Virus record (IMG/VR): IMGVR_UViG_3300044715_001611
Coordinates: 121,657 to 185,656 of that record
Length of the DNA stretch: 64,000 bases
Source: a virus
Strand: one strand, 5' to 3'
Shown: piece by piece, positions 1,560 to 59,959 of the stretch
How positions within the stretch are numbered: the stretch's first letter is position 1
Layout: every line of letters starts with the position of its first letter
Position numbers and translations under genes: made by a program
Notes under the pieces: generated by a model
Database searches by the model: none
Seen by the model: the letters and a program-made list of their open reading frames with translations, nothing else
Told to the model about the DNA's origin: nothing

Positions 1560-2225
1560 ATGAGTGAACAAGAAGAAGAGCAGGTGCTCGTAATCCCCCG
1601 CCGCGCATTCGACGCCTGCGGGTCATTTCAGGGCTACAGCCCAAATGTGACGCAGTATATGGATTTGCTCAGCGGCGAGCTTTTCCAATACATGCCACGG
1701 TCGAAGGCGGAGCAGGACGAGACCGCGAAGCAGATCATCCCTTACGTGGTGTTTGCCCGGCGAAACGAAAATGCCATTGAATTGCTGACGTATCAGCGTT
1801 CCAAAAAATCAGGCGAAACGAGATTGGCGTCGAAATACTCAATCGGCATCGGAGGCCACATCAATAGCGGCGACCTGGACTACCAGACGGCGCTGATGCG
1901 CGAGATCAACGAGGAGATCAGTTTCGGTGGCGTCAGTCCATTGTCGCCCGGTGACCCAATTGGCATCCTGAATGACGACAGCAATGCCGTCGGCAGAGTG
2001 CATCTGGGGTTTGTGCATCTGGTGATGTTGAGCAGTGATGCGATGATTCACCGACACGAGGATGCGCTGGCGAATCTGCAATGGATTGCGCTGGAGGAGC
2101 TGGAGGATGCAGTCAGTTGCGAAACCATGGAGTTCGAGACATGGTCTCTGCTGTGCATGAAACCCGTGATGCGGAAGGCGCTGGAGCGGTCACTTGCCGA
2201 GGTCGTCGCCGCCGGAAAGCAGTGA
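1560..2225 (+). CDS. Nudix hydrolase family protein
   Basis: A 221-aa protein with a recognisable though non-consensus Nudix box. The segment GIGGHINSGDLDYQTALMRE is followed by INEEISF at about residues 97-123, giving the diagnostic RE-x2-EE pattern with Asp in place of the first Glu and one extra residue of spacing. The box also contains GGHI. Nudix enzymes hydrolyse nucleoside diphosphates linked to another group, using Mg2+ held by the box glutamates. The upstream IIPYVVFARR strand and the LLTYQRSKKSGE segment resemble phage-associated MutT-like phosphoesterases. The substrate cannot be deduced. The start is in the ACAAATGAGTG context. Confidence 0.82.
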   Translation: MSEQEEEQVLVIPRRAFDACGSFQGYSPNVTQYMDLLSGELFQYMPRSKAEQDETAKQIIPYVVFARRNENAIELLTYQRSKKSGETRLASKYSIGIGGHINSGDLDYQTALMREINEEISFGGVSPLSPGDPIGILNDDSNAVGRVHLGFVHLVMLSSDAMIHRHEDALANLQWIALEELEDAVSCETMEFETWSLLCMKPVMRKALERSLAEVVAAGKQ

Positions 2226-2647
2226 TGCCTGTCGCGCCGGAAGAAGGAGCGACTGGAAATCCCCTAGCGTCCAAGTTCCTCTACCGCTACGAGGCAGCGC
2301 GCGGAAGCATCACCTACGTGCAGGTGGTGCTGAGGAGATACAGGGTGAGCAAGGAGACGCCTTCTGGATATTGGATTCAGCACCCCGATGGTTACCCATG
2401 GGAGGATCGTCAAAAGTTCATCCTGAAATGCGGCGGAGGATCCAAGAAACGATTCGCGTATGAAGATCCGGATCGCGCATGGCAGTCTTGGAAATCTAGG
2501 AAGCATCACCACATCAACCACCTCACCAACCAATTGCGCCGCGCCCAGTTGCTGAATGAAATCGAGAGGCCCGAGTTCCCGAAGGATTCAGCCGAGGTGC
2601 TGGATGGGGACGATGCGGGAATACTGAAACCAAAAGAAAATGAGTAA
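2225..2647 (+). CDS. Widespread phage hypothetical, 140 aa
   Basis: Start chosen at the TGATG junction with the Nudix gene, although the frame stays open further upstream. It shows the pattern of a phage family I know only as hypothetical: YRVSKETPSGYWI, KRFAYEDPDRAWQSW, then a basic C-terminal helix (RRAQLLNEIE). Probably a small helical protein; no enzymatic motif seen. Confidence 0.78.
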   Translation: MPVAPEEGATGNPLASKFLYRYEAARGSITYVQVVLRRYRVSKETPSGYWIQHPDGYPWEDRQKFILKCGGGSKKRFAYEDPDRAWQSWKSRKHHHINHLTNQLRRAQLLNEIERPEFPKDSAEVLDGDDAGILKPKENE

Positions 2648-2669
2648 ATCAAATGAGCGAACCGAATAA
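2640..2669 (+). promoter_or_regulatory. Mini-ORF spanning a gene junction
   Basis: ATGAGTAAATCAAATGAGCG carries two copies of the AAATGAG start context. The first opens a nine-codon ORF (MSKSNERTE) that runs across the real start at 2653. Whether ribosomes use it is unknown. Confidence 0.3.
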
Positions 2670-3066
2670 ACCGGAGCCGATGACCATGGTGCCAGTATGC
2701 TGGCGGCTGGAAGTCAGCGAGCCATACCTCTGGCCGTCGAACATGTGGGTTTTTCGGCGTGATGAATGGCGCAGCCTGGTCGTGGGGTCGATGGAAGAGA
2801 AATGGGGATTTCACGAAGGACTCTGGCTAATAGGTCAGGATGCGGAGGAGGGCGTCACAGATCAGGGAACCATGGAGGTAGGATTGTTGCATCTGGATCC
2901 GGCACAGTTGATTGAGAGTATGGACTTGCCGCAGCCGCATCTGCCAAAAGAGTGGCTGCGAAAATCATTCCATGACCAGCTGGTGATTCTGCAGAAGACC
3001 ATGCGGGATATCGTCGGCGGCATTTGGGAGAGCGATATCGTCCCCTGGCTCAAAACGCTGAAGTGA
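2653..3066 (+). CDS. Hypothetical protein, 137 aa
   Basis: Trp-rich N-terminal half (CWRLEVSEPYLWPSNMWVF, about 14-32) and a helical C-terminus. It starts in the ATCAAATGAGCG context and ends one base before the next start. No recognised domain. Confidence 0.75.
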   Translation: MSEPNKPEPMTMVPVCWRLEVSEPYLWPSNMWVFRRDEWRSLVVGSMEEKWGFHEGLWLIGQDAEEGVTDQGTMEVGLLHLDPAQLIESMDLPQPHLPKEWLRKSFHDQLVILQKTMRDIVGGIWESDIVPWLKTLK

Positions 3067-3067
3067 G

Positions 3068-3430
3068 ATGACAAAGCCAATCGTATCCCTCCTGCATACG
3101 GAGGATCCGACCGCGTCGTATTTACAGGATTACGAGACCCATCAGGGCGCGTGCGGGGTGGTGCTGGCATTTGCCAGGAATTGGGCGGTGGCAATTGTGC
3201 AGAGGGACGGGCGCATCAACAGGTTCACATTCGCCAGGAATCTAGGGAGCAAGGGGGAGCCGGCAATTACGGTGTATGAGGACATCGCTCTCGTCCCGAA
3301 GCAAATCCACAGGAGAATGGTCCTGCATATGCAGGCGAAGCAGCATAAATACAAGAAACAGCTACACGCGCATGGACCCTTGGCGGTCTTCGAGGCGGTG
3401 TTGCAATATCTCAACTTAAAATCAAAATGA
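3068..3430 (+). CDS. Hypothetical protein, 120 aa
   Basis: Basic protein (RNWAVAIVQRDGRINRFTF about 37-55; many Lys/His near 80-100), compatible with nucleic-acid binding but without a family signature. It starts immediately after the preceding TGA. Confidence 0.72.
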   Translation: MTKPIVSLLHTEDPTASYLQDYETHQGACGVVLAFARNWAVAIVQRDGRINRFTFARNLGSKGEPAITVYEDIALVPKQIHRRMVLHMQAKQHKYKKQLHAHGPLAVFEAVLQYLNLKSK

Positions 3431-3492
3431 CAAAATCAACGCAGGAAATTGAAACGAACGCAGGACGGAAAGGATTTACCCATGCCGACTGA
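3427..3492 (+). CDS. Possible 21-aa leader ORF
   Basis: ATG 3427 lies in the CAAAATGA junction context and encodes MTKSTQEIETNAGRKGFTHAD, ending inside the start of the membrane gene at 3482. It may be a coupling leader rather than a functional protein. Confidence 0.35.
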   Translation: MTKSTQEIETNAGRKGFTHAD

Positions 3493-3787
3493 GCCGGAGC
3501 AAATTGTACAACTGGAAGGGGACTACAGGACTCGGATAGAGCAGATGCAATTCTGGCTATGGCTGCAGCGGATGCTGATGTGGTTGCTGGTGGCGATGCC
3601 GCCGGTCGCCTGGTGGTTCGGAATGCAGAGCGTGGGATTGCTGGTCGCGCTGTTTGTGTTTGTGCTGCTGCTGGAGCTTGGGGTATGGATTCTATACCGC
3701 AGCACAAAACAGGATGCGCATCTGTTGCATCTGCATTTGATCTGTCTGCAGAAACCCAAATACATTCCGAAAGACGAAGGACAATAG
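3482..3787 (+). CDS. Two-TM membrane protein, 101 aa
   Basis: The first in-frame ATG is used rather than an upstream TTG. After a 30-residue soluble N-terminus there are two strongly hydrophobic segments (about 27-47 WLLVAMPPVAWWF and 49-70 LLVALFVFVLLLELGVWIL), then a basic/His-rich tail. Likely an inner-membrane phage protein; it is not next to the lysis genes, so a holin call is not supported. Confidence 0.75.
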   Translation: MPTEPEQIVQLEGDYRTRIEQMQFWLWLQRMLMWLLVAMPPVAWWFGMQSVGLLVALFVFVLLLELGVWILYRSTKQDAHLLHLHLICLQKPKYIPKDEGQ

Positions 3788-3790
3788 AAC

Positions 3791-4108
3791 GTGAAAGAGA
3801 ACAAAAAACCAAAGACCCAAATCCCCCATTGCGACTTCCTGGAGGTGCTGGCGTTTGAGTTGCGAATGGTCATCCACACCGCCGGCGCGACGGGCGATGT
3901 CGATCCGGGGACGGAGAGGGATAACTGGCAGGCTGAGGTCCAGACTCGGAAGAATTGGAGACACGATGCCGCAATGCTGCTGACGCATTTGGAGAATGCA
4001 GGAATTGCGGTGAAGGTTTCCAAATCTGCGAAGCTGCAGAAGGCGCTGCAGTTCATCGTCACGCAACCCGAGAAGATTGCCTACCGTCCGCTGGATGAAA
4101 GCAACTGA
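3791..4108 (+). CDS. Hypothetical protein, 105 aa
   Basis: GTG start three bases after the previous stop. Mixed charged, mostly helical, with ELRMVIHTAGATGD in the middle. The last codons overlap the next gene in another frame. No family recognised. Confidence 0.68.
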   Translation: MKENKKPKTQIPHCDFLEVLAFELRMVIHTAGATGDVDPGTERDNWQAEVQTRKNWRHDAAMLLTHLENAGIAVKVSKSAKLQKALQFIVTQPEKIAYRPLDESN

Positions 4109-4265
4109 GAACGTGGAACGGCTAGGGAACGCCATCACGGAGGCGCTGCGTGAAATGGAAAAATGTCCGGATGACTCGGTGCAAAACATCTGGAACGAGG
4201 CTCTCGAATCCTGGGAGACAGGGCTGCGGATGAATCAGCGGCTCGAAATAGAGTCCGCCCGCTGA
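4095..4265 (+). CDS. Small acidic helical protein, 56 aa
   Basis: The ATG at 4095 is preferred to a TTG 18 bases upstream. The sequence is one amphipathic helix-rich chain (NAITEALREMEKCPDD). It overlaps the 3' end of the gene before it by 14 bases. Confidence 0.55.
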   Translation: MKATENVERLGNAITEALREMEKCPDDSVQNIWNEALESWETGLRMNQRLEIESAR

Positions 4266-4266
4266 C

Positions 4267-4494
4267 ATGAGAAAGGCGAAGTCAATTCTGCATGTGAATC
4301 AACATGCTGTGCGCGCAAACAAAAAGGACGGAGGCAACCGACCTGTGATCACCCACAAGCAGAGGCGCACGAACAATTACGGACACACCGCAGAGATCGC
4401 CGGGCCTTCCATTCTGGTCTATCGCCCGGACAAGCCATTGTCGTGTGGGGCAAGGTGCTGGATCGAAACTTATGCGGACGTGACGCTGCGGTGA
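4267..4494 (+). CDS. Hypothetical basic protein, 75 aa
   Basis: Lys/Arg/Asn-rich N-terminal half (HKQRRTNNYGHTAEI), ending in CGARCWIETYADVTLR. Last gene of this unit; about 230 non-coding bases follow. Function unknown. Confidence 0.62.
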   Translation: MRKAKSILHVNQHAVRANKKDGGNRPVITHKQRRTNNYGHTAEIAGPSILVYRPDKPLSCGARCWIETYADVTLR

Positions 4495-4538
4495 TTTGAT
4501 TTAGATTTGGGTCAATTGGGACAGGCTGGGAGCCTGTG

Positions 4539-4567
4539 AAATACGACGCACTGGCGCGTCATATAAT
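4539..4567 (+). promoter_or_regulatory. Promoter-like element with hairpin spacer
   Basis: AAATAC, 17 bases, then TATAAT at 4562-4567. The spacer holds an inverted repeat (GACGC/GCGTC). The same layout (GAAATA, 17 bases, TATAAT) occurs at 18118-18146, and a looser copy at 12797-12827. The element sits in the 227-bp gap before the 507-aa gene and probably drives it. The rest of the gap (to 4721) shows GC-rich short palindromes and no ORF I can support. Confidence 0.5.
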
Positions 4568-4721
4568 CATGCGAAGGAGTGATTCCCTCATTCCGTCGCT
4601 GGGGTCAATTCCGATCCCCATGCCGCATCCTGCGGCCCTCAATTCGCCGGGGTCCAATACCAAAGGACACCCGTTAAATTAGAGGTTCTCAATTCGGAAA
4701 TCATGCAAACCAACACACACC

Positions 4722-6245
4722 ATGAACACCATCAAACCCTACGAAATCCGCCCGCTCCTCAACCCGGTCCTCACAAACTTTGAGGCGCGGGCCGTGCAGG
4801 TGACGTCACCGCGGCTGTCACACGTGCCGTCTCGCCATCGCGGCGAGCGCCAGGGGCAGGCCCAACGCTTCACCCGCCACGAGGCGGACCGCGCAGCCAT
4901 CGGATCCCGCAATACGGATCTGGCGGCCATGGGCATCAATCCCGACGGTACGCTGAGTAGCGGCTTCAACGCCCGCATCACCACCCGTCTCAGCTCGAAG
5001 GCCACACAATCGTTCTCCGTGGTGGAGTTCGTCGGCATTGGGGTGGTGACGCCGCAGAACGGCTTCGAGAAGTTTCATCTTCTCGATGCCAACATCCCAG
5101 GACGGGAAGATGGCGTGGTCTGCTATGACCTCAATACGTTCTGGCTGAACAGGGAAATCGGGGAGCGCTTCATGGCGTTCGCCATGGTGTGGGGGCCTGC
5201 CATGGCCTTCAGCTTCACCCCCAGGACCCTGACCGACCACGGCTGGATTTGGGGCGGGCCCGGAGAGGAGCGGCAGCCGCTCATCAACTGCAGTGCCATG
5301 TGGTTCCCGCCGATCACGGCGGACAACCGCGGCGGGCATCATGGCCGGTTGGCCATGGAAGGGCTGCAGGAGCTGGGCTTGCAGTTCCGGGAGGATGGGT
5401 CAATTGAGGCCCTGCGCCAAAAGGCCATGGAGCCGGATGTGTTCGAGGCCGCCCGCCCCTTCTTCGAGGAAGATTGGAAATCCGTGCTGGCGGCCACCAA
5501 TCCCACCAAGGCGAGCAATGTGGTGCGTGAGGCGATCATCCGTCCGTTGGGATGGAGTGGGCACACTGCCGAAAGGCAGGTCTATGCGCAGACGCTGGGC
5601 CACCCCACGAAGGTGGAGTTGAACGAGGAGCAGCGCGCCGCATTCGGTGCATTCGAGCGGGTCACGACCGAAGACTTCGGTCTGAAGCCGAAAGCCACGA
5701 CGACCGTCGCGGTCGCGGTCTCGGCACCGGTGCCACCCGCCCCGCCCGCAATGGTCGCCGCAATGACACCGCCGCCACCACCGCCAGAGTTCGAAGCGAA
5801 GGCACGGGCATTCTGGTGGATCGACACTACCGGCACCAAGAGCATGGTCGCCGGTCCCATCACCGAAGGCGAGGCGCGCGTGGTGGCGCAGCGCTACCCG
5901 GCGGGCAAGTTCAACGAAGTGGATTCCACCACGGGCTGGCAGTCCGCCTTGGAATACAACCTCATGGCGCCAGCAGCTCCGATGCCGCCTGCGCCTCCGG
6001 CAGAAGCATGGCAGGCCGCCGAGGTCAAGGAGACTGCGGCCCATGTGGCGGCAGCCCCCGAGGCGGTCGCGCCGGCTGCCAAGAAGAAGACCGTGAAGAC
6101 GGTCGAGCGGCGGAAGAAGACCAAAGCCACGGTGCCGGCAGCTGAGCCGGCGGAGGAATCCGGGACTGACGAGCCGAAAGGCCTGAGCGTCCTGGACGAC
6201 CCAAAACTTCGGGCAATGCTGGAGGCAGCACTGCCGGTCGGCTAA
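4722..6245 (+). CDS. Unknown 507-aa protein, isolated transcription unit
   Basis: Has its own promoter-like element upstream and a strong terminator downstream, a layout often used for highly expressed phage genes. Residues 1-300 are a globular domain with no family I recognise. A Pro/Ala linker follows (about 330-350), then a small compact segment (FWWIDTTGTKSMVAGPITEG, about 363-382), then an Ala/Lys-rich tail (KKKTVKTVERRKKTK) and an acidic end. The basic tail could contact nucleic acid. No SD is visible; the start context is CACACCATG. Confidence 0.85.
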   Translation: MNTIKPYEIRPLLNPVLTNFEARAVQVTSPRLSHVPSRHRGERQGQAQRFTRHEADRAAIGSRNTDLAAMGINPDGTLSSGFNARITTRLSSKATQSFSVVEFVGIGVVTPQNGFEKFHLLDANIPGREDGVVCYDLNTFWLNREIGERFMAFAMVWGPAMAFSFTPRTLTDHGWIWGGPGEERQPLINCSAMWFPPITADNRGGHHGRLAMEGLQELGLQFREDGSIEALRQKAMEPDVFEAARPFFEEDWKSVLAATNPTKASNVVREAIIRPLGWSGHTAERQVYAQTLGHPTKVELNEEQRAAFGAFERVTTEDFGLKPKATTTVAVAVSAPVPPAPPAMVAAMTPPPPPPEFEAKARAFWWIDTTGTKSMVAGPITEGEARVVAQRYPAGKFNEVDSTTGWQSALEYNLMAPAAPMPPAPPAEAWQAAEVKETAAHVAAAPEAVAPAAKKKTVKTVERRKKTKATVPAAEPAEESGTDEPKGLSVLDDPKLRAMLEAALPVG

Positions 6246-9846: not shown

Positions 9847-11751
9847 ATGCCTGCCGCACCCACCGCATACGGAATCAAAGGAGGGAAGATCCAGGAGATC
9901 GATTCCGAGGAAGCCGACTACGAACTGCCCCACATGGCAGCCACGTTGGACTCCCACATCAACTTGATTCCAATGCAGAATGCGGTGCAGGCTCCGCGGC
10001 TGTTCTACGGCGCACGCTTCTACAATCAGGCGCTGGCCCTGCAGAACCGGGAGACGCCGCTGGTGCAGTCCCTCATTCCCGACGACCCGGATGGTAGGAC
10101 ATTTGATGAGCATTTCGGGCCGATGGTCGGTGCATTGCATTCCAAGCATCAGGGGACGGTGGACGCTGTGGATTCCGACAGCATCACCCTCAAGACTCCG
10201 GAGGGGAAGAAGCGCATCCCGCTCTATAACACGTTCAGTTTTAATCGTAAATCCAGCCTGCATCAGACCCCCGAGGTAAAAGTCGGGGATGAAGTGACGC
10301 CTGGGCATTTGCTGGCCTCCTCCAATTACACCGACAAGAAAGGCGCGTTGGCTCTCGGACTCAATGCCCGAGTCGGTTTCGTTCCCTACAAGGGATGGTC
10401 CATGGACGATGCCGTGGTCATCTCGCAGGCATTTGCCGATCGGCTCAAATCCGAGAAGCAATTGACGCACGCGCAGGAGTTCGACGATGACACCAAAGGC
10501 GGACTCCATCATTTCGTCAGCCTGTTTCCGACGGCATTTGAAAAGGCCAAGCTGGCGAACATGGACGAGCATGGCGTCATCAAAAAGGGCAGCATCATCA
10601 AGGAGGGAGACCCGATGATTCTAGCCACTGCTCCAAAGGTGGTGACGGCCCGCGATGCGCAGGTGGGCAAACTCTCACGCACGCTTCAGCAGACCCGACG
10701 CAATGCCACGCAGCTTTGGGATCACCAGGATCCTGGTGAAGTCATCGACGTGGCACGCACCTCGAAGGGGGTGAAGGTGGTGGTGAAATCCATAAGCGCC
10801 ACGCGAGTAGGGGACAAGATTGTAACGCGAAACGGACAAAAGGACATCGTGTCGCGCATCATTCCAAACGAGCACATGCCGCGTACGCTGGACGGTGAGC
10901 CGCTGGAGGTGTTGATGAATCCTCTCAGTGTTCCGAGTCGCGTGAACAACAATTTCATCTACGAGACGCTGCTGGGCAAAATCGCAAGGAAGAGCGGGCA
11001 GCCCTACCGCCTGCGCGGCTTCAATGGTCCCGGCGAGAAGTATCACGAGTTCGTCGAAGCTGAGTTGGCGAAACACGGACTCCAATCCACCGACGAGGTG
11101 TTTGACCCGCAATCCAATAGGAAATTGCAGCGTCCAATTACCACGGGTGTGGCTCATTTCTTCAAGCTGCACCATGAATCCGAATCGAAATCGTCTGCGC
11201 GAGGCATTTCCGGATATGACGCGAATCAACAACCGAGCCGCGGTGCTGGGGAGTCTGCCCAAAGTAAAAGACTCTCGGGGTTAGAGGTCGGAAGTCTGCT
11301 GTCATCGGGAGCATACGCAAATCTCAAAGAAGCCTCCACCCTACGCGGACAGCAGAACGATCAATACTGGCGGGAGGTCCGCCTGGGTCACAAACCTCCA
11401 ATGCCCGGTGAGCCATTTGTCTGGCATAAATTCAAAACGCTATTGAACGGCGCCGGTCTTCACGCAAAGGATATCGGCGGTGGAAAATTGCGACTTGGGG
11501 CGTTCACGGACAAAGCCCTTGCTGCGCATGACCCGAAGGAGATAGCCCACGGAGGCACAGTCAATCTCGCAACCCTCGAAGAAGAGCCCGGCGGATTGTT
11601 CGACCCCAGCCTGATTGGCAATAATCGGTGGGGAAAAATAAGCCTGCATCAGCCAATGCCGCTACCCTCCATGGAATCCAGCCTGAGAACTTTGTTGTCG
11701 CTCACAAAAAAAGAATTCGAGGAAGTTCTTAGCGGAAAAAGAAACTTGTAA
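9847..11751 (+). CDS. RNA polymerase: beta C-terminal part fused to start of beta-prime
   Basis: A 634-aa phage multisubunit RNA polymerase protein. Recognisable beta segments in order: fork-loop region NLIPMQNAVQAPRLFYGARF at 39-58; ALALGLNARVGFVPYKGWS then MDDAVVISQ at 167-194; GDKIVTRNGQKDIVSRI at 322-338 with the two active-site lysines (K324, K332) spaced as in E. coli K1065/K1073; DGEPLEVLMNPLSVPSRVN at 349-367; HFFKLHHESESKSSARG at 437-453; LSGLEVGSLLSSGAYANLKE near 477-495. Residues about 580-630 (GGLFDPSLIG, WGKISLHQP, LRTLLSLTKKEFEEVL) match the N-terminal stretch of beta-prime, not beta. The beta N-terminal half is absent from the window. The ORF stops in the beta-prime N-terminus, just before an HNH gene. 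Confidence 0.93.
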   Translation: MPAAPTAYGIKGGKIQEIDSEEADYELPHMAATLDSHINLIPMQNAVQAPRLFYGARFYNQALALQNRETPLVQSLIPDDPDGRTFDEHFGPMVGALHSKHQGTVDAVDSDSITLKTPEGKKRIPLYNTFSFNRKSSLHQTPEVKVGDEVTPGHLLASSNYTDKKGALALGLNARVGFVPYKGWSMDDAVVISQAFADRLKSEKQLTHAQEFDDDTKGGLHHFVSLFPTAFEKAKLANMDEHGVIKKGSIIKEGDPMILATAPKVVTARDAQVGKLSRTLQQTRRNATQLWDHQDPGEVIDVARTSKGVKVVVKSISATRVGDKIVTRNGQKDIVSRIIPNEHMPRTLDGEPLEVLMNPLSVPSRVNNNFIYETLLGKIARKSGQPYRLRGFNGPGEKYHEFVEAELAKHGLQSTDEVFDPQSNRKLQRPITTGVAHFFKLHHESESKSSARGISGYDANQQPSRGAGESAQSKRLSGLEVGSLLSSGAYANLKEASTLRGQQNDQYWREVRLGHKPPMPGEPFVWHKFKTLLNGAGLHAKDIGGGKLRLGAFTDKALAAHDPKEIAHGGTVNLATLEEEPGGLFDPSLIGNNRWGKISLHQPMPLPSMESSLRTLLSLTKKEFEEVLSGKRNL

Positions 11752-40450: not shown

Positions 40451-43400
40451 ATGTCCGACCATGAGGATCTACCAAAGCTCAAAAAGGCGAAGTCGTTTTC
40501 TGACGACGCCAATTGGCATGAAAAGCATGTACTTCTCCGAAGCATGCTCGCCGAACACCCGGACCGCTGGGAGGTGGACCAGGATGACGGGCACCAGCAT
40601 GCTGTCGGGATTCGGCACGAATCGGGATTCAAATTCCATCTGCCACGGGAGCAGGTGGTCGGGCCGGCGACGCCTCCCGCTGAGAAGTCCGCCATGTCCC
40701 TGATGCCCTCGCTTTCCGATATGGCAACCAGCCGCCTGCTGAAGGCGATCTCCGCGGATCAGGTAAAGCTGGGGCCGGATGGAGAGATCATCGTAGCACC
40801 CGAGGAAGAAGCCCCGCTGACACCGGAAGAGCAGGCGCAGGAGGATATGACCGCCATTTCTGAGCAGGTGGCGGCGATGCAACGGCAGCGGAAGGCCGCG
40901 CGTCCTGCTTATTACGATCCCAGGGATTGGACTGCCCAAGTAGCCAGCGCATTGGGATTGCCCGATGATGGCAAATACCACCCACGCACCGTCAAATCCG
41001 CAGGCAGCAAATGTCCCAATTGCCATACGACGGAGGGGTATTTGAAACTGGCTGGCGAGGCGATCATCTGCAGGGAATGCAACCGGCGCTCGGATACCAC
41101 GGAATGGGAGGAGGCAAATCTGAAGACATCTGGCGGCGAAAAAAAAGCATCCACCGAGGCAAAGCCCGCCCCGCTCACCGGCCCCGAGGGCATCAAGGCA
41201 AAGCTCGCCTCCCTCGACCTGGAGGCTCTCGCCGCCGAGCAGCATGCCTACATCAAATCAGGCAAGGTCTCCAAGCGCGACAAGGCCGTCAAAATCCTCA
41301 ACATCATCGAGGGTCTCAAGCGCAACAAGGTGAAGCCGGAGGAATTGATGATTCACGCCGTGCCAGTCATCCCGGCAGTGTATCGCCCATTTGCAATGGC
41401 GGGTGGCACGTTCATCCCCGGCGACGCCAATGAACTCTACAAGGACCTGTTCACGTTCCAGAAGCTGCACCGGGAGACTCACAAAGAATTGGGACCGGAG
41501 GCAGGCAATGAGGCCGGCCTGCAGGTTTACAATGCGGTGAAGGCGCTTTACGGATATGGGGAGCCGGTGAATCCAAAGACGGCTTCTCGCGGAGTGACTG
41601 GGTTCTTCAAATCACTGGTGGGCACTTCGCCCAAATACAGCTTCTACCAGCGGGCGCTCATTTCGAAACCGATGGATAATATTTCTAGATCGACGGCCAG
41701 CGTGAATCCGGATCTGGGAGTTGACGAAGTCGGATTGCCTGATGACCATGCTTGGAAGGGCTTTGCTCCTTATGTGCAAGCGCGATTGGTCGGGCTGGGC
41801 TATGCACCCGGCGACGCTGTAAAAGCCATTCGCGATCGGACGCCTTACGCATTGCAGGCTTTACAGAAAGAGATGGAAGTGCGGCCCGTGATTATTTCAA
41901 GGGCACCGGCGTGGCACAAATTCAATGCTGTAGCACAGCGTGCGCGTATGGTGAAAGGGGACTCCATCCAGGCCAATCCATTTGTTACGACGGGAATGAA
42001 CCTAGACTTCGATGGAAATTGCGTCAAAGTCGGCACAAAGATAATGGTTGCATGGCATCCAGATACATGTTCATCCGCGCGCCTAATGAAACACGCCAAT
42101 ACACAAATCAGACTCAACACCAAGGACACCTACGTCGCGTGCATCCCAATTGAGGATTTCCCGCATCTCAAGGGCACCGCAAAGAAGGATCGCAACGGGG
42201 CGGATGTTTATGAGGTGCCTGCTGGGCTCAAGGTGCTAAGCCCGGTAGAGGGCAAAGGAATGCAATGGTGTGATGTCACGCACTTCACCCACGAGAAGGA
42301 CACGCCCTGCATGGATGTCGTTTGCGTCACCGGGCATTCCGTGACGGTCTCAGCCAATGAATCCATTGCCGCCTTCAATTCGGAGACCGGGCTGCTGGAG
42401 AAGATCAAACCCGCAGATGCCGTGGGCCGTCTCGTTCCGCTGTCTCGGTCTGCCGCGCTTCCCAAGACGACCATGCGCGTGTCCGACAATCCCTACGAAT
42501 TCGGTTGGCTGCTCGGTGCCTTCCTTTCGGATGGCTGGATTGATGAGAACGGGATGGTGGGCTACACCAAGTCCAATGCGGAACACCGCATTCGGTTTGC
42601 GGCGGCCTGCTCTTCATACCTCGGGGACACGGAAGCCGCATTCCTGCGCATCCAGAATTACGCGGAGACGCATGGTGCGGACAATCACAGCGGGATTTGC
42701 GGGGACAGTTCGAAGATTCACATCCGCCTGTTGAAAGAACACGCAGCAAAAGCTCCTCGGTATGCGCAGCTTCAGGGTATTTTCCGGGACTGCTACGACC
42801 CTGCCAAATTGGAACGTGATTTGACCACAGAGCGTTCCTGCCTCTACAAGCGGCTGCCGCAAATCACATGGGCACTTCCAATTGAAGCACTGTATGGGCT
42901 GCTGGCCGGGCTGTTTGACGGAGACGGTAGCATTTCCAGTTCCGAGAAACCCGGACGCAAACACCCGGCGTTTACATGCAATCTGGCGACCTCATCTCCG
43001 CATCTGCGGGACTCCGTGATGGCGCTGGCCCAATTTCTCGGCATTCGCTGCAGCTCCACAGCGCAGGAGCCGAAGAAAGGGCGTGCGCAGACTCATACGA
43101 GTTATGTGGTGAATTTCTCGGTGATCGATATCCGACGAATTGCCCCGTGGTTACAACTCACCAAAGCCAATGCCGCGGCGACCTTGGCGCATTTGCGGTC
43201 CGTGCCGGATATGCAGGACACGCGAGATGTTGTGCCTGTGCTGAAGGCGGAGCTGGAGGAATTACGAAAGAACAAGGACTTGCCCTGTCGTAATTCCATA
43301 ACGCAAACGATTTCGAAACTCAAACATACCATCGCCCCTGTGGTCAGTCGTCAATGGGTGTTTGCGCTGCCGGAGGCGGATTTGAATCGGGTGCCGGCCT

Positions 43401-43837
43401 TGCGGCAACGCGCTGAGACCACCTCAGTGCTCTGGACTACAATTGAGTCTGCGACACCAGCAGGGAAGCATGACGTGTATGACCTTGCAGTGCCCGAGAC
43501 GAAGGTCTTCGCAATTGCCAACGGGTTGGTGGTGTTCGACACCATGAACGCCCATGTGGTTGCGAGCCCGGAAGCAGTCAAAGAGGCCTACGACAAATTG
43601 CTCCCCAGCAAGATGGTCTTTGGGATCCGTGACCCTGATGCCGTAATCAACAATTTGAAGCACGAGCAAATCCTCGGGTCGTATGCTGCAAGCCAGCGCC
43701 CTTCGCAGAAACAATGGAAGTTCGGCTCAAAGGACGAGGCCATCAGCGCATTAAAGAACGGCACCGTACCCCTGCATGATGACGTGACATTTCCAGGCAG
43801 CGAGAAACTCGGCACGCCTTTGCATGTCGAGGTGTAA
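40451..43837 (+). CDS. RNA polymerase beta-prime N-terminal core with intein
   Basis: 1128 aa before splicing, 621 after. Residues 1-240 are phage-specific with a zinc ribbon (CPNC, then CREC, about 187-210). From about 244 it follows beta-prime: GPEGIKAKLASLDLEALAAE; VIPAVYRPFAMAGGTFIPGD, then ANELYKDL (lid/rudder segment, about 306-335); FYQRALISKPMDNISRS; VRPVIISRAPAWHKFNAVAQ; MNLDFDGN at 516-523, the catalytic Mg2+ loop. The intein interrupts at Cys524, and beta-prime resumes with TMNAHVVAS at 1031. The spliced loop reads DFDGN-TM rather than DFDGD-QM/EM: the third catalytic Asp is Asn. The protein ends about 97 residues later, so bridge helix and trigger loop must come from another gene. 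Confidence 0.93.
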   Translation: MSDHEDLPKLKKAKSFSDDANWHEKHVLLRSMLAEHPDRWEVDQDDGHQHAVGIRHESGFKFHLPREQVVGPATPPAEKSAMSLMPSLSDMATSRLLKAISADQVKLGPDGEIIVAPEEEAPLTPEEQAQEDMTAISEQVAAMQRQRKAARPAYYDPRDWTAQVASALGLPDDGKYHPRTVKSAGSKCPNCHTTEGYLKLAGEAIICRECNRRSDTTEWEEANLKTSGGEKKASTEAKPAPLTGPEGIKAKLASLDLEALAAEQHAYIKSGKVSKRDKAVKILNIIEGLKRNKVKPEELMIHAVPVIPAVYRPFAMAGGTFIPGDANELYKDLFTFQKLHRETHKELGPEAGNEAGLQVYNAVKALYGYGEPVNPKTASRGVTGFFKSLVGTSPKYSFYQRALISKPMDNISRSTASVNPDLGVDEVGLPDDHAWKGFAPYVQARLVGLGYAPGDAVKAIRDRTPYALQALQKEMEVRPVIISRAPAWHKFNAVAQRARMVKGDSIQANPFVTTGMNLDFDGNCVKVGTKIMVAWHPDTCSSARLMKHANTQIRLNTKDTYVACIPIEDFPHLKGTAKKDRNGADVYEVPAGLKVLSPVEGKGMQWCDVTHFTHEKDTPCMDVVCVTGHSVTVSANESIAAFNSETGLLEKIKPADAVGRLVPLSRSAALPKTTMRVSDNPYEFGWLLGAFLSDGWIDENGMVGYTKSNAEHRIRFAAACSSYLGDTEAAFLRIQNYAETHGADNHSGICGDSSKIHIRLLKEHAAKAPRYAQLQGIFRDCYDPAKLERDLTTERSCLYKRLPQITWALPIEALYGLLAGLFDGDGSISSSEKPGRKHPAFTCNLATSSPHLRDSVMALAQFLGIRCSSTAQEPKKGRAQTHTSYVVNFSVIDIRRIAPWLQLTKANAAATLAHLRSVPDMQDTRDVVPVLKAELEELRKNKDLPCRNSITQTISKLKHTIAPVVSRQWVFALPEADLNRVPALRQRAETTSVLWTTIESATPAGKHDVYDLAVPETKVFAIANGLVVFDTMNAHVVASPEAVKEAYDKLLPSKMVFGIRDPDAVINNLKHEQILGSYAASQRPSQKQWKFGSKDEAISALKNGTVPLHDDVTFPGSEKLGTPLHVEV
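42020..43540 (+). mobile_element. LAGLIDADG intein in the RNA polymerase active-site loop
   Basis: A 507-aa intein (residues 524-1030). The N-terminal splice block is CVKVGTKIMVAW with Cys1. A block-B-like VCVTGHSVTVSANESI lies downstream. Two LAGLIDADG motifs, WLLGAFLSDGWID and LYGLLAGLFDGDGSIS, mark a homing endonuclease domain. The C-terminal block is AIANGLVVFD followed by Thr+1. The usual His-Asn ending is replaced by Phe-Asp, so splicing chemistry may be atypical. Boundaries are set by alignment to the uninterrupted DFDGD-M-H motif. Confidence 0.88.
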
Positions 43838-56428: not shown

Positions 56429-59400
56429 ATGCCGACACGCTACTTCAAAAACTCGGTTGACCAAAACTGGGACGTCCCCGGGAACTGGTGGGCAGACGCC
56501 GCCTGCACTGAGGGCTTTTCCGGCACCCTGACCGGCGTGAATGTCACGGACACGGACACGGAAGTGACCTGCGACAGCACGGCGGGTCTTGTGGTGGGGC
56601 GCCCTATCACCGGCACCGGCATAGACACAGGCACTACGGTCGCGAGCATCACGGATGGCACGACGTTTGAACTGAGCCTGCCAGCCATCGCCAACGGCAG
56701 TAGCAACCTCACTTGTGAATTGCATGGGATTCCCGTGACCGCCGATGATGTCGTCATCGCGACTGGCAACGGCACGGTGGTTGCCCTCCCTTCGGCGGAC
56801 GTGCTCGGGTTGGTGACGGTGAATGGGGACAGCGTGCTGGATGTAGGTATGTGGCCGTCTGTGGGGCTATCAGCCGCTAGCTTCGAGTTCAATGACACCA
56901 GTTACAATTCAGGCTACATCGCCGGAAACTGCACCTTCAACGACTCTAGTGCCAACTACGAGGGCAATATCGCCGGAAACTGCACCTTCAATGATTCCAG
57001 CTTCAGCTACGGCTCCATCACCGGAGACTGTACCTTCAACGATACTAGTAGCACCACCCTCGATGTCACCGGAAACTGCACCTTCAATGATTCCAGCTTC
57101 AACAATTGGGGCTACATCGCCGGAGACTGCACCTTCAATGGCTCCAGCTACAACGGTTCTTCTTCCGCCTCCATCACCGGAGACTGTACCTTCAACGACA
57201 GCAGCTACAACGACGGCACCATCACCGGTGAGGTCGCCTTCAACGGCAACAGTCGTAACGGCAACAATTCTCCTGTGGTAAACGGCATCATCAACGGGGA
57301 CTTTACGTGGGGTAGTTCCAATTACAACTACGGAATCATCAACGGTGACTGCGTAGGCGGCGCGGTCTTAAATGAGTACCCTGGCGTTATCAACGGAAAC
57401 TGCACGGTAGCCTCCGGCGGGACGGTTGCCATCAACGGATGCGTCATCAACGGCGACTGTGACTTCCTTAATGGAGGTTACTCCTTTGGCAGCAGTGCGG
57501 TTATTACCGGCAACGTCACGTTCTCTGGTAGTAGCTATGGCGGTATGTATGGCGGAACCATCAACGGAGATGTTACCTTCAACGACTCTACCGCACTGCA
57601 AGGCAGTGGCACCATTACCGGAACAGTCACCTTCAACAACAGCACCCAAAAAACAGGGGGCTACATATATGGTAATCCAACCTTCAACGATTCCAGTGCT
57701 TACGCATGGGGCAGCTCAGGCACAATCTTTGGTGATCCAACTTTTAATGACTACACGACGTGTAGTGGCGACATTACCGGAAATGTTACCTTAAACGATA
57801 ATGCCTATTACTCGGGTGACACAACGGGCAATGTTTCGTTCACAATGACGACGTTCGTGAGTGACCCTCTGAACAGCGTATACGGCGGATACGTGAGCGG
57901 TACGGTAGATTTTCCAAACGGGGCCACCTTCACGCTGGCAAACTCAGAATCATGGATTGTGGACGCTTCCGCATGGACAGGCACACTTGCATGGGAGTTT
58001 AACGACACCAGCTACAACGCCAGCGGAGCCACCGTCACAGGAAACCCCACCTTTAACGACACCAGCTACAACGCCAGCGGAGCCACCATCACCGGCAATC
58101 CAACCTTCAATGACTCCAGCTACAACCAAGGCTACATCTCTGCGACCTCTGTCACCTTCAATGATTACAGCTACAACCGCAGTGACAGCGGTAATCCGCT
58201 AGTCGCCACCTCTGTCACCTTCAACGATTACAGCTTCAACGGTCTCGACAACGTCGCAGGCGGTTACATCACCGGAGACTGCACATTTAACGACTTCAGC
58301 TTCAACGAATACAACGGCTACATCACCGGCAACGCCACGTTCACCGCAGCTGAATACTCGGCACTGGGGGGAAATTATTATTACGGCAGCGACCCACAGC
58401 GGGGCACCGTCTCAGGTACCGTCACCTTTACCAGCCTCACGCCAGTCAAGTTCACGATGGCGGGAAATGTGTGGTATTCGGACACAACCGGATGGGTGTT
58501 TGATACCGCTGGTCAGAATTGGGAGTTCAACGGCGAGAGCTACGTCCTCGGCACCATCACCGGCGATTGTGTGTTCAACGGCGGTGACAGTTATTCAATC
58601 CCCTACCAAATCCAAGGAACGGTCAATGGCAACTGTGTGTTCAATGTCTACAACGCCATCGGAACCTCTGGTGTCGTCAACGGCGATTGTGTGTTCAACA
58701 ACGCTAAGGTCGACGGTACCGTCAACGGAAACTGCACGTTCAACGGCTACAGTTGGAGCACTAGTACTAGCAACATCACTGGAGACTGCGAATTTTATGG
58801 TAACTCCGCTCAGGGCACCATCACTGGCGACGTCACGTTCTATAGTGGCTACAACACCGGAACCATCACCGGCAACGTCACGTTCTCTGGTGGCTACAAC
58901 AGCGGCACCATCACCGGCAACGCATCGTTCACCGACACTGCATTCTCCACAGCTACCACAGGATTTTTCAACCCACAGCAAGGCACCGTCACAGGCGGCA
59001 CCGTGGACTTCCCGAATGGAGCTACATTCACTCTGGCAGGCTCTGAGGTATGGACTACGGACGCCTTTGCATGGACAGGCACACTCGCATGGGTGTTCAA
59101 CGACACCAGTGCCAACAGCTGGGGTAGCACCATCACTGGCACCGTCACGTTCAACGATTCCAGCTACAACGGTGGCAGCGGCGTCACCATCATCGGCGAC
59201 CCAACATTCAACGATAACAGCTACAACGGCTACAGCACCATCACCGGCAATCCAACCTTCAACGACAACAGCTACAATGCTAGCGGAGGCGGCATCACCG
59301 GCAATCCAACATTCAACGATTACAGCTACACCACCGGCACCATCACAGGCAACTGCACGTTCAACGATACTAGCTACGTCGATGACAACGGAATCATCAC

Positions 59401-59959
59401 CGGCAACGCCACCTTCACCAACACCGCCTTCTCCACGGCAACCACTGGATTCTACAACCCACAGCAAGGCACCGTTTCAGGCACCGTGGATTTCCCGAAT
59501 GGAGCCACCTTCACGCTGGCAAGCGGAGAAGTATGGGCTACGGACGCCTCCATATGGACTGGCACACTCGCATGGGAGTTCAACGACACCAGCTACAACG
59601 CCGAGCGCATCACCGGAGATTGCACCTTTAATGGTTACAGCTACGGCACAGTATCCGGTTCCGTCATCGTCGGCAACTGCACCTTCAACGGCTCCAAATA
59701 CCACGGTAATGGCACCATCACTGGTAATGTCTCATTCCGTGAATCTTCCTACAGCGGAGCCAGCGGCATCACAGGAAACGTGACATTCTACGATTCCAGC
59801 TACAACTCCAGCGGTGTCATCATCACCGGCAACGGCATCATCCGCCAGCACGCCGCTGCATTCGTCGCATGGCGGGACTACGCCACGTCCGCCTACATCA
59901 CCGGCACGCTCACCTTACAATTCCCCGAGATGGACATCCTCGGCACCGGCCTGCTATAA
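56429..59959 (+). CDS. Giant FNDSSYN/ITGN-repeat fibre protein, 1176 aa
   Basis: After a 150-residue N-terminal domain the chain is dozens of 16-20 residue units of the form (C/V)TFND(S/T)SYN-x-G-x-ITGN, with Asn/Ser/Thr at turns and alternating hydrophobics, as in a right-handed beta-helix. Three superblocks begin with TVDFPNGATFTLA then W-x2-DA-x-WTGTLAW (near 57.9, 59.0 and 59.5 kb). The C-terminus is non-repetitive. Position among fibre genes suggests an adhesin or long tail-fibre shaft. No enzymatic domain seen. Confidence 0.82.
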   Translation: MPTRYFKNSVDQNWDVPGNWWADAACTEGFSGTLTGVNVTDTDTEVTCDSTAGLVVGRPITGTGIDTGTTVASITDGTTFELSLPAIANGSSNLTCELHGIPVTADDVVIATGNGTVVALPSADVLGLVTVNGDSVLDVGMWPSVGLSAASFEFNDTSYNSGYIAGNCTFNDSSANYEGNIAGNCTFNDSSFSYGSITGDCTFNDTSSTTLDVTGNCTFNDSSFNNWGYIAGDCTFNGSSYNGSSSASITGDCTFNDSSYNDGTITGEVAFNGNSRNGNNSPVVNGIINGDFTWGSSNYNYGIINGDCVGGAVLNEYPGVINGNCTVASGGTVAINGCVINGDCDFLNGGYSFGSSAVITGNVTFSGSSYGGMYGGTINGDVTFNDSTALQGSGTITGTVTFNNSTQKTGGYIYGNPTFNDSSAYAWGSSGTIFGDPTFNDYTTCSGDITGNVTLNDNAYYSGDTTGNVSFTMTTFVSDPLNSVYGGYVSGTVDFPNGATFTLANSESWIVDASAWTGTLAWEFNDTSYNASGATVTGNPTFNDTSYNASGATITGNPTFNDSSYNQGYISATSVTFNDYSYNRSDSGNPLVATSVTFNDYSFNGLDNVAGGYITGDCTFNDFSFNEYNGYITGNATFTAAEYSALGGNYYYGSDPQRGTVSGTVTFTSLTPVKFTMAGNVWYSDTTGWVFDTAGQNWEFNGESYVLGTITGDCVFNGGDSYSIPYQIQGTVNGNCVFNVYNAIGTSGVVNGDCVFNNAKVDGTVNGNCTFNGYSWSTSTSNITGDCEFYGNSAQGTITGDVTFYSGYNTGTITGNVTFSGGYNSGTITGNASFTDTAFSTATTGFFNPQQGTVTGGTVDFPNGATFTLAGSEVWTTDAFAWTGTLAWVFNDTSANSWGSTITGTVTFNDSSYNGGSGVTIIGDPTFNDNSYNGYSTITGNPTFNDNSYNASGGGITGNPTFNDYSYTTGTITGNCTFNDTSYVDDNGIITGNATFTNTAFSTATTGFYNPQQGTVSGTVDFPNGATFTLASGEVWATDASIWTGTLAWEFNDTSYNAERITGDCTFNGYSYGTVSGSVIVGNCTFNGSKYHGNGTITGNVSFRESSYSGASGITGNVTFYDSSYNSSGVIITGNGIIRQHAAAFVAWRDYATSAYITGTLTLQFPEMDILGTGLL
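56890..59830. repeat. Dispersed coding repeats of the giant fibre gene
   Basis: Imperfect 48-60 bp units (ACCTTCAACGA-T-CAGCTACAAC core, ATCACCGG-AA- linker). Long near-identical segments between superblocks invite recombination. Confidence 0.88.

Follow-up and report, generated by a model that had tools for sequence, protein, structure and literature searches.

In a phage multisubunit RNA polymerase, a mobile intein with altered splice blocks interrupts the metal-A loop, where Asn is encoded in place of the third catalytic Asp

Inteins have been described in the catalytic loop of one polymerase and close to the active site of others. In several archaeal species, including P. abyssi, the catalytic double-psi-beta-barrel loop of the PolD subunit DP2 (PolII) holds an intein (PMC4996933); those of Pab and Pho begin with Cys1, as does the intein reported here (PMC4996933, PMC8175363). 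The P. horikoshii PolII intein shares, in addition, Asn at −1 and a terminal residue other than Asn, in its case Gln (PMC8175363). Archaeal PolD shows that a catalytic loop of this barrel type tolerates departures from DxDGD as well as the presence of an intein (PMC4996933). However, PolD is a different enzyme; its intein precedes C-D-G-D (the construct C-extein is CDGDED), both invariant Asp remain in the C-extein, and the intein itself is a mini-intein with the block-B, block-F and penultimate His all present and Cys at +1. Eukaryotic RNA polymerases (RNAPs) carry inteins in RPB2, RPA2 and RPC2, again at the most conserved sites near the active site, but these are second-largest subunits and none of the inteins in that survey lies in the metal-A loop (PMC1635734). 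The Zeta group of crAss-like phages, whose genomes are rich in introns and inteins, has interrupted RNAP genes, including at DxDxD, though by stop codons and frameshifts rather than by an in-frame intein at this position (PMC7886860). The closest annotated relative of the polymerase considered below, that of Salmonella phage Arash (gp206/gp216), has β and β′-N fused in one gene and reads DYDGD with no intein.

The window, the whole stretch of DNA analysed here, makes up the final 64 kb of a virus record 185,656 bases long (G000), from a large uncultured phage, which endolysin and tail-protein matches confirm to be a tailed phage. An ORF of 1128 aa (40451-43837, plus strand, as are all features within it) runs without an internal stop through the N-half of an RNAP β′ subunit and an intein. 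Its N-extein (523 aa, 40451-42019) ends in DFDGN and is homologous to β′ (rpoC) over aa 241-523: in profile searches it matches TIGR02386, the RpoC equivalog, at E=4e-41 and PF00623 (RNA_pol_Rpb1_2) at E=7.5e-11, and it is 28% identical to Acinetobacter RpoC and 30% to Arash gp206. Upstream of the conserved β′ region lies a CPNC...CREC pair (41012-41080) of putative zinc-ribbon-like fold. The metal-A loop DFDGN occupies aa 519-523 (42005-42019); its third ligand position is Asn (codon aat), which is also the −1 residue of the intein. The C-extein (98 aa plus stop, 43541-43837) starts with TMNAHVVAS, placing Thr at +1; it aligns with uninterrupted relatives and is 31% identical to the C-end of Arash gp206.

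Is the 507-aa insert (aa 524-1030, 42020-43540, CVKVGTK...GLVVFD) really an intein? The first-pass annotation had proposed a LAGLIDADG intein with exactly these boundaries, inserted into the catalytic DFDG loop of the phage's RNAP, and both the profile matches and the empty sites of relatives bear it out. TMNAHVVAS restarts at 43541, and removing the insert from the ORF computationally leaves the 621 aa anticipated. The two expected LAGLIDADG motifs, LLGAFLSDG (42509-42535) and LLAGLFDGDG (42899-42928, within a profile match), each have their acidic residue intact. The insert matches LAGLIDADG_3 at E=1.5e-9 and Hom_end at 2e-7; its match to Intein_splicing, at 0.0013, is below that model's cut-off. 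In the PDB, profiles built from the allelic inserts retrieved PI-PkoII, PI-SceI and the inteins of DnaB and RadA, the last two only at 0.0015-0.014. For both the intein (pLDDT 47) and the precursor (pLDDT 34) the AlphaFold models were too poor to use, so that a Foldseek search with the intein model, in which PI-SceI and PI-PfuI rank first, lends slight support. A free-standing homing gene or an intron was rejected, the frame being open through both junctions and the gap against uninterrupted homologues exact. The argument that the element sits where imprecise loss is costly also stands, and accords with the usual rule of insertion at conserved sites, which eukaryotic RNAP inteins follow likewise (PMC1635734).

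The empty sites come from scans of IMG/VR, whose records are metagenomic. These yielded about a dozen phage contigs with β′ N-halves 46-54% identical to that of the window; two further relatives lie in bacterial MAG contigs. The site is uninterrupted in L017, L018, L021/L023, L022, L014/L025, L064, L065 and L066, all of which read DxDGD, as well as in Arash and Vibrio phage D69. Uninterrupted relatives and outgroup RNAPs cross the junction without a gap, as DxDGD followed by T, A or Q, whereas the same bond is interrupted in the window and in L013, L020, L027, L067 and L068. The RNAPs of these phages contain further inteins in the bridge helix (after STK), in β, elsewhere in β′ N and at various points around the trigger loop (after AANA, GEPA, TQGAL, ALN and KH); by these alignments the catalytic-loop intein is one of many and not an isolated case. 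The β′ C-halves of L052, L054, L055, L057, L028, L075 and L076 hold inteins in the trigger-loop region and bridge helix, often two per gene, and in L054 only about nine RNAP residues separate the two. Fusions were also seen. The L068 ORF (6360-8849) combines the β′ N-half with proline-rich stretches and a domain of the inorganic pyrophosphatase type (PF18823, 7e-22), which suggests an injected multi-domain protein, and the β′ N ORFs at L014:5086 and L027:5469 have, by eye, an HAD-like motif (FDLDGTLA and VDLDGTLAE) upstream of the RNAP part. Matches to Acinetobacter phage MD-2021a, located among host genes, were not taken as phage RNAPs, nor were unannotated Listeria, Staphylococcus and Enterococcus ‘phage’ matches that look like host rpoC; all of these serve at most as a bacterial yardstick.

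What of the rest of the polymerase? We searched the whole record with the RNAPs of Arash and D69 and with bacterial RpoB/RpoC. A single multisubunit RNAP is encoded there, split over five pieces: a pair of β N-pieces, within ORFs at G000 102974-107179 and 107176-107904; a β C-half of 634 aa (window 9847-11751, plus strand; PF00562, E=6e-54; Arash gp206 aa 484-1104, E=2e-91) whose active-site motifs (DD, Lys and Arg) are intact; the β′ N-half, in the precursor ORF (window 40451-43837); and the β′ C-half (G000 1698-4754). The β′ C-half contains a second intein, of 405 aa, outside the window (L006:2676-3890, which is G000 2676-3890; LAGLIDADG_3 5.5e-12, Hint 4e-6). This one directly follows the trigger-loop His (VKH/CLKEGT...LIVKN/TAGV, slashes marking the junctions) and has a canonical Cys1 and terminal Asn. 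A search for a T7-type RNAP, a possible substitute, gave no match, but its control gave no signal either. Other features deserve mention. The 1401-aa ORF holding the first β N-piece (L011:2974-7179, that is G000 102974-107179) has further matches to PF23474, the Acb1 anti-CBASS family (3.5e-6), and to DUF6624 (4e-12), and is apparently an RNAP subunit fused to a counter-defence enzyme. The ORF immediately after the β′ C-half (L006:4751-5905) is GIY-YIG endonuclease-like by eye (GIYAIFCKPNGKLYLGSA), and a 1176-aa ORF of the window (56429-59959) has a bactofilin domain (PF04519, 1.6e-18), unusual for a phage.

If the insert is removed as an intein, what does it leave behind? At the window junctions, DFDGN/C...FD/T, the third Mg-binding Asp position is Asn and the last intein residue is Asp, whereas −1 is Asp in every uninterrupted relative. 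The motif is thus DxDGN and not the three-Asp DxDGD of β′, a statement about the encoded sequence and not the mature protein. It had been supposed in the first-pass annotation that splicing simply rebuilds the loop; this is not supported as it stands, because conventional boundaries yield DFDGN-T, with the third catalytic Asp missing. A single G-to-A change converts GAT to AAT, and one might suspect a base-call or assembly error in an otherwise ordinary intein. But L068 has the same pair of −1 Asn and terminal Asp, and scans of viral contigs for DNA encoding DFDGNCV or NADFDGN added RNAPs from other polymerase lineages: L080/L082/L085 (three contigs, 99.9-100% identical over their overlaps), L087, and L084 (completed as L114). 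In each of these an intein lies immediately 3′ of the Asn; the exteins of L080, L087 and L114 are 33-36% identical to the window polymerase. Since independent contigs of four other phage lineages carry the same Asn, an error is refuted and its probability practically negligible. The remaining matches to the two patterns are unrelated proteins. Among the 25 NADFDGN-spelling matches in viral contigs no uninterrupted DxDGN RNAP was found, all RNAPs there being intein-bearing.

We refer to the five complete inteins with −1 Asn (window, L068, L080, L087 and L114) as N-type. How do their splice sites compare with those of known classes? All five share Cys1-Val2, Thr+1, a terminal Asp preceded by an aromatic residue ([FYW]D/T), SxNE[ST] in block B and, in block F, the usual Asp followed by Lys in place of His, within TK[VI][FY]A. 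In the window these are block B VSANES (42347-42364; B:10 His replaced by Glu), block F VYDLAVPETKVF (43475-43510; F:4 Asp retained, F:13 His replaced by Lys) and block G GLVVFD (43523-43540; penultimate His replaced by an aromatic residue, terminal Asn by Asp). The intein splice blocks reported at first pass are therefore present but strongly altered, lacking the block-B, block-F and penultimate His and the terminal Asn. Of the class 1 features, the nucleophiles at 1 and +1 are in place and the block-B Ser (B:7) is kept, but the block-B His is Glu and the Asn with its penultimate His is [FYW]D in 5/5. Class 3 was rejected, F:4 being Asp rather than Cys and position 1 being Cys. Against the open-access literature, the N-type inteins are most likely a previously undescribed subfamily.

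Could these be crippled inteins, held in polymerases that are inactive or dispensable? The block-B His, the terminal Asn and the third Asp are all lost, and one Asp-to-Asn change in the metal-A site of Pol V (drd3-3, Asp451Asn) breaks that enzyme (PMC2605557). This, and the description of the three metal-A Asp as invariant, also count against a working DxDGN loop. However, five divergent inteins have kept the replacement residues in common, which argues for conserved substitution and not decay; they persist even in the L087 intein, which has lost its first LAGLIDADG motif. The exteins and ORFs are intact, the other RNAP catalytic motifs are kept, and the host branches are of ordinary length and do not exceed the branches of uninterrupted relatives, which suggests that the polymerase is under selection. 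Nor would a polymerase-killing element be expected to reach at least three polymerase lineages. Impairment is, in our estimation, improbable.

At the same site four further inteins (D-type: L013, L020, L027 and L067) keep DxDGD; those of L013 and L020 end in Asp, that of L067 in Asn. A terminal Asp is found in 7/8 complete inteins at this site and in 0/15 located elsewhere in the RNAPs of this phage group, all 15 of which end in Asn (naive p=3e-5, kinship among the alleles being ignored). The 643-aa L067 intein (L067:8850-10778) is peculiar in its own right: it has Asp at position 1 (no Cys or Ser), Asp in place of the block-B His and no F:4 Cys, and with its terminal Asn it does not match any of the three splicing classes.

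Might the mature enzyme nonetheless read DFDGD, either because Asn−1 becomes Asp during or after splicing or because excision is shifted by one residue and the terminal Asp is kept? Several observations point that way. In 5/5 N-type inteins Asn and Asp have traded the places they normally take; a −1 Asn and a terminal Asn are never combined, as if one Asp were obligatory; the terminal Asp is special to this site, by the counts just given; DxDGN was seen only beside an intein, as NADFDGN in viral contigs; and insertion, at the DNA level, of a segment running from N to F, Y or W between G and D would leave the extein unchanged. On the other hand, we know of no splicing chemistry that cuts between F and D or turns a −1 Asn into Asp. 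A shifted excision would require the terminal aromatic residue to depart without cyclising and Asp+1 to take the acyl group, and deamidation at Asn-Thr is normally slow. We regard a DFDGD product as unlikely, though we keep it as a rival reading. The stronger statement, that removal of an N-type intein creates the third catalytic Asp (by conversion of Asn or by leaving behind its own terminal Asp), and hence that splicing alone would complete an active site encoded as incomplete, we hold to be rather unlikely.

Did the Asn arise repeatedly, or did it travel? In the intein tree a branch supported at 98/98 separates the N-type from the other inteins. Forcing the hosts of N-type inteins into a clade is rejected (AU p=0.0014, in the wider test including L080, L087 and L114), although window and L068 hosts as sisters, tested alone, are not firmly excluded (AU p=0.074). 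Between the window and L080, identity is 35% for the inteins and 33% for the polymerases; between the window and L013 it is only 25% for the inteins but 49% for the polymerases. Because the inteins group while their hosts do not, the simplest reading is that the element moved horizontally by homing, the Asn codon travelling along. Among 50,697 phage records neither the window nor the L080 version of the N-type intein was found; 72,556 plasmid records, scanned for the L080 version, contained none.

How might the insert, its empty-site boundaries, the family with its conserved substitutions and the horizontal spread be joined in one account? Most likely, judging from sequence, this is a splicing-competent new intein subfamily that would yield a working DxDGN polymerase or, less likely, one given its Asp by unusual chemistry. 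We infer homing, splicing, the sequence of the product and polymerase activity as follows. The N-type LAGLIDADG intein would home between the DxDG and D codons of phage multisubunit RNAP β′ genes. Its Hint domain would use the class-1 route, a Cys1 thioester followed by transfer to Thr+1, with the terminal Asp cyclising in place of Asn and with Glu (B:10), Lys (F:13) and the aromatic residue (G:6) substituting for the three usual histidines. Excision would release the 621-aa β′ N-half to join the separately encoded β and β′-C pieces. Conventional splicing would yield a DxDGN loop, since the N-type carries Asn at −1, and this loop would function with two Asp and one Asn as ligands. The whole account, a mobile N-type intein with class-1-like splicing and a functional DxDGN loop, is on balance probable. 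For inteins that end in Asp, Glu or Gln the same mechanism has been described (PMC4031507), and loss of the block-B His can be compensated (PMC6333167, PMC4031507). The Tko CDC21-1 intein lacks that His, as the N-type does, and splices; it uses a Lys outside the conserved blocks and sits in another host protein, and is likened here on block B alone (PMC4031507). Counting against the account, one of the two inteins without a block-B His known in 2014 is a pseudogene (PMC4031507), and the absence of uninterrupted DxDGN RNAPs is odd if DxDGN works well. In view of the splicing, metal-A and PolD comparisons cited, we rank an active DxDGN first, creation or retention of Asp second and an inactive polymerase third.

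Does the intein also serve as a switch, as suggested at first pass, keeping the RNAP off until splicing is triggered during infection by redox, temperature or DNA? The insertion site ties activity to removal, the chemistry of a terminal Asp may be slow, and some other inteins, DnaB inteins among them, are stress-responsive (PMC6195587). Yet most relatives have no intein at this site and presumably manage without such a switch, which we think quite improbable.

Multisubunit RNAPs are described as having an invariant metal-A motif, DxDGD, and here a mobile element occupies its third Asp. That this element has reached distant phage polymerases, always with Asn, leaves two conclusions to choose from. 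Either DxDGN is functional in a natural polymerase, which bears on how strictly the Asp triad is needed, or there exists a splicing chemistry that supplies the Asp. In the N-type family the three canonical histidines and the terminal Asn are all swapped for other conserved residues, and the family would be useful for learning in what ways the splicing mechanism can be rewired and for the design of inteins that are controlled differently.
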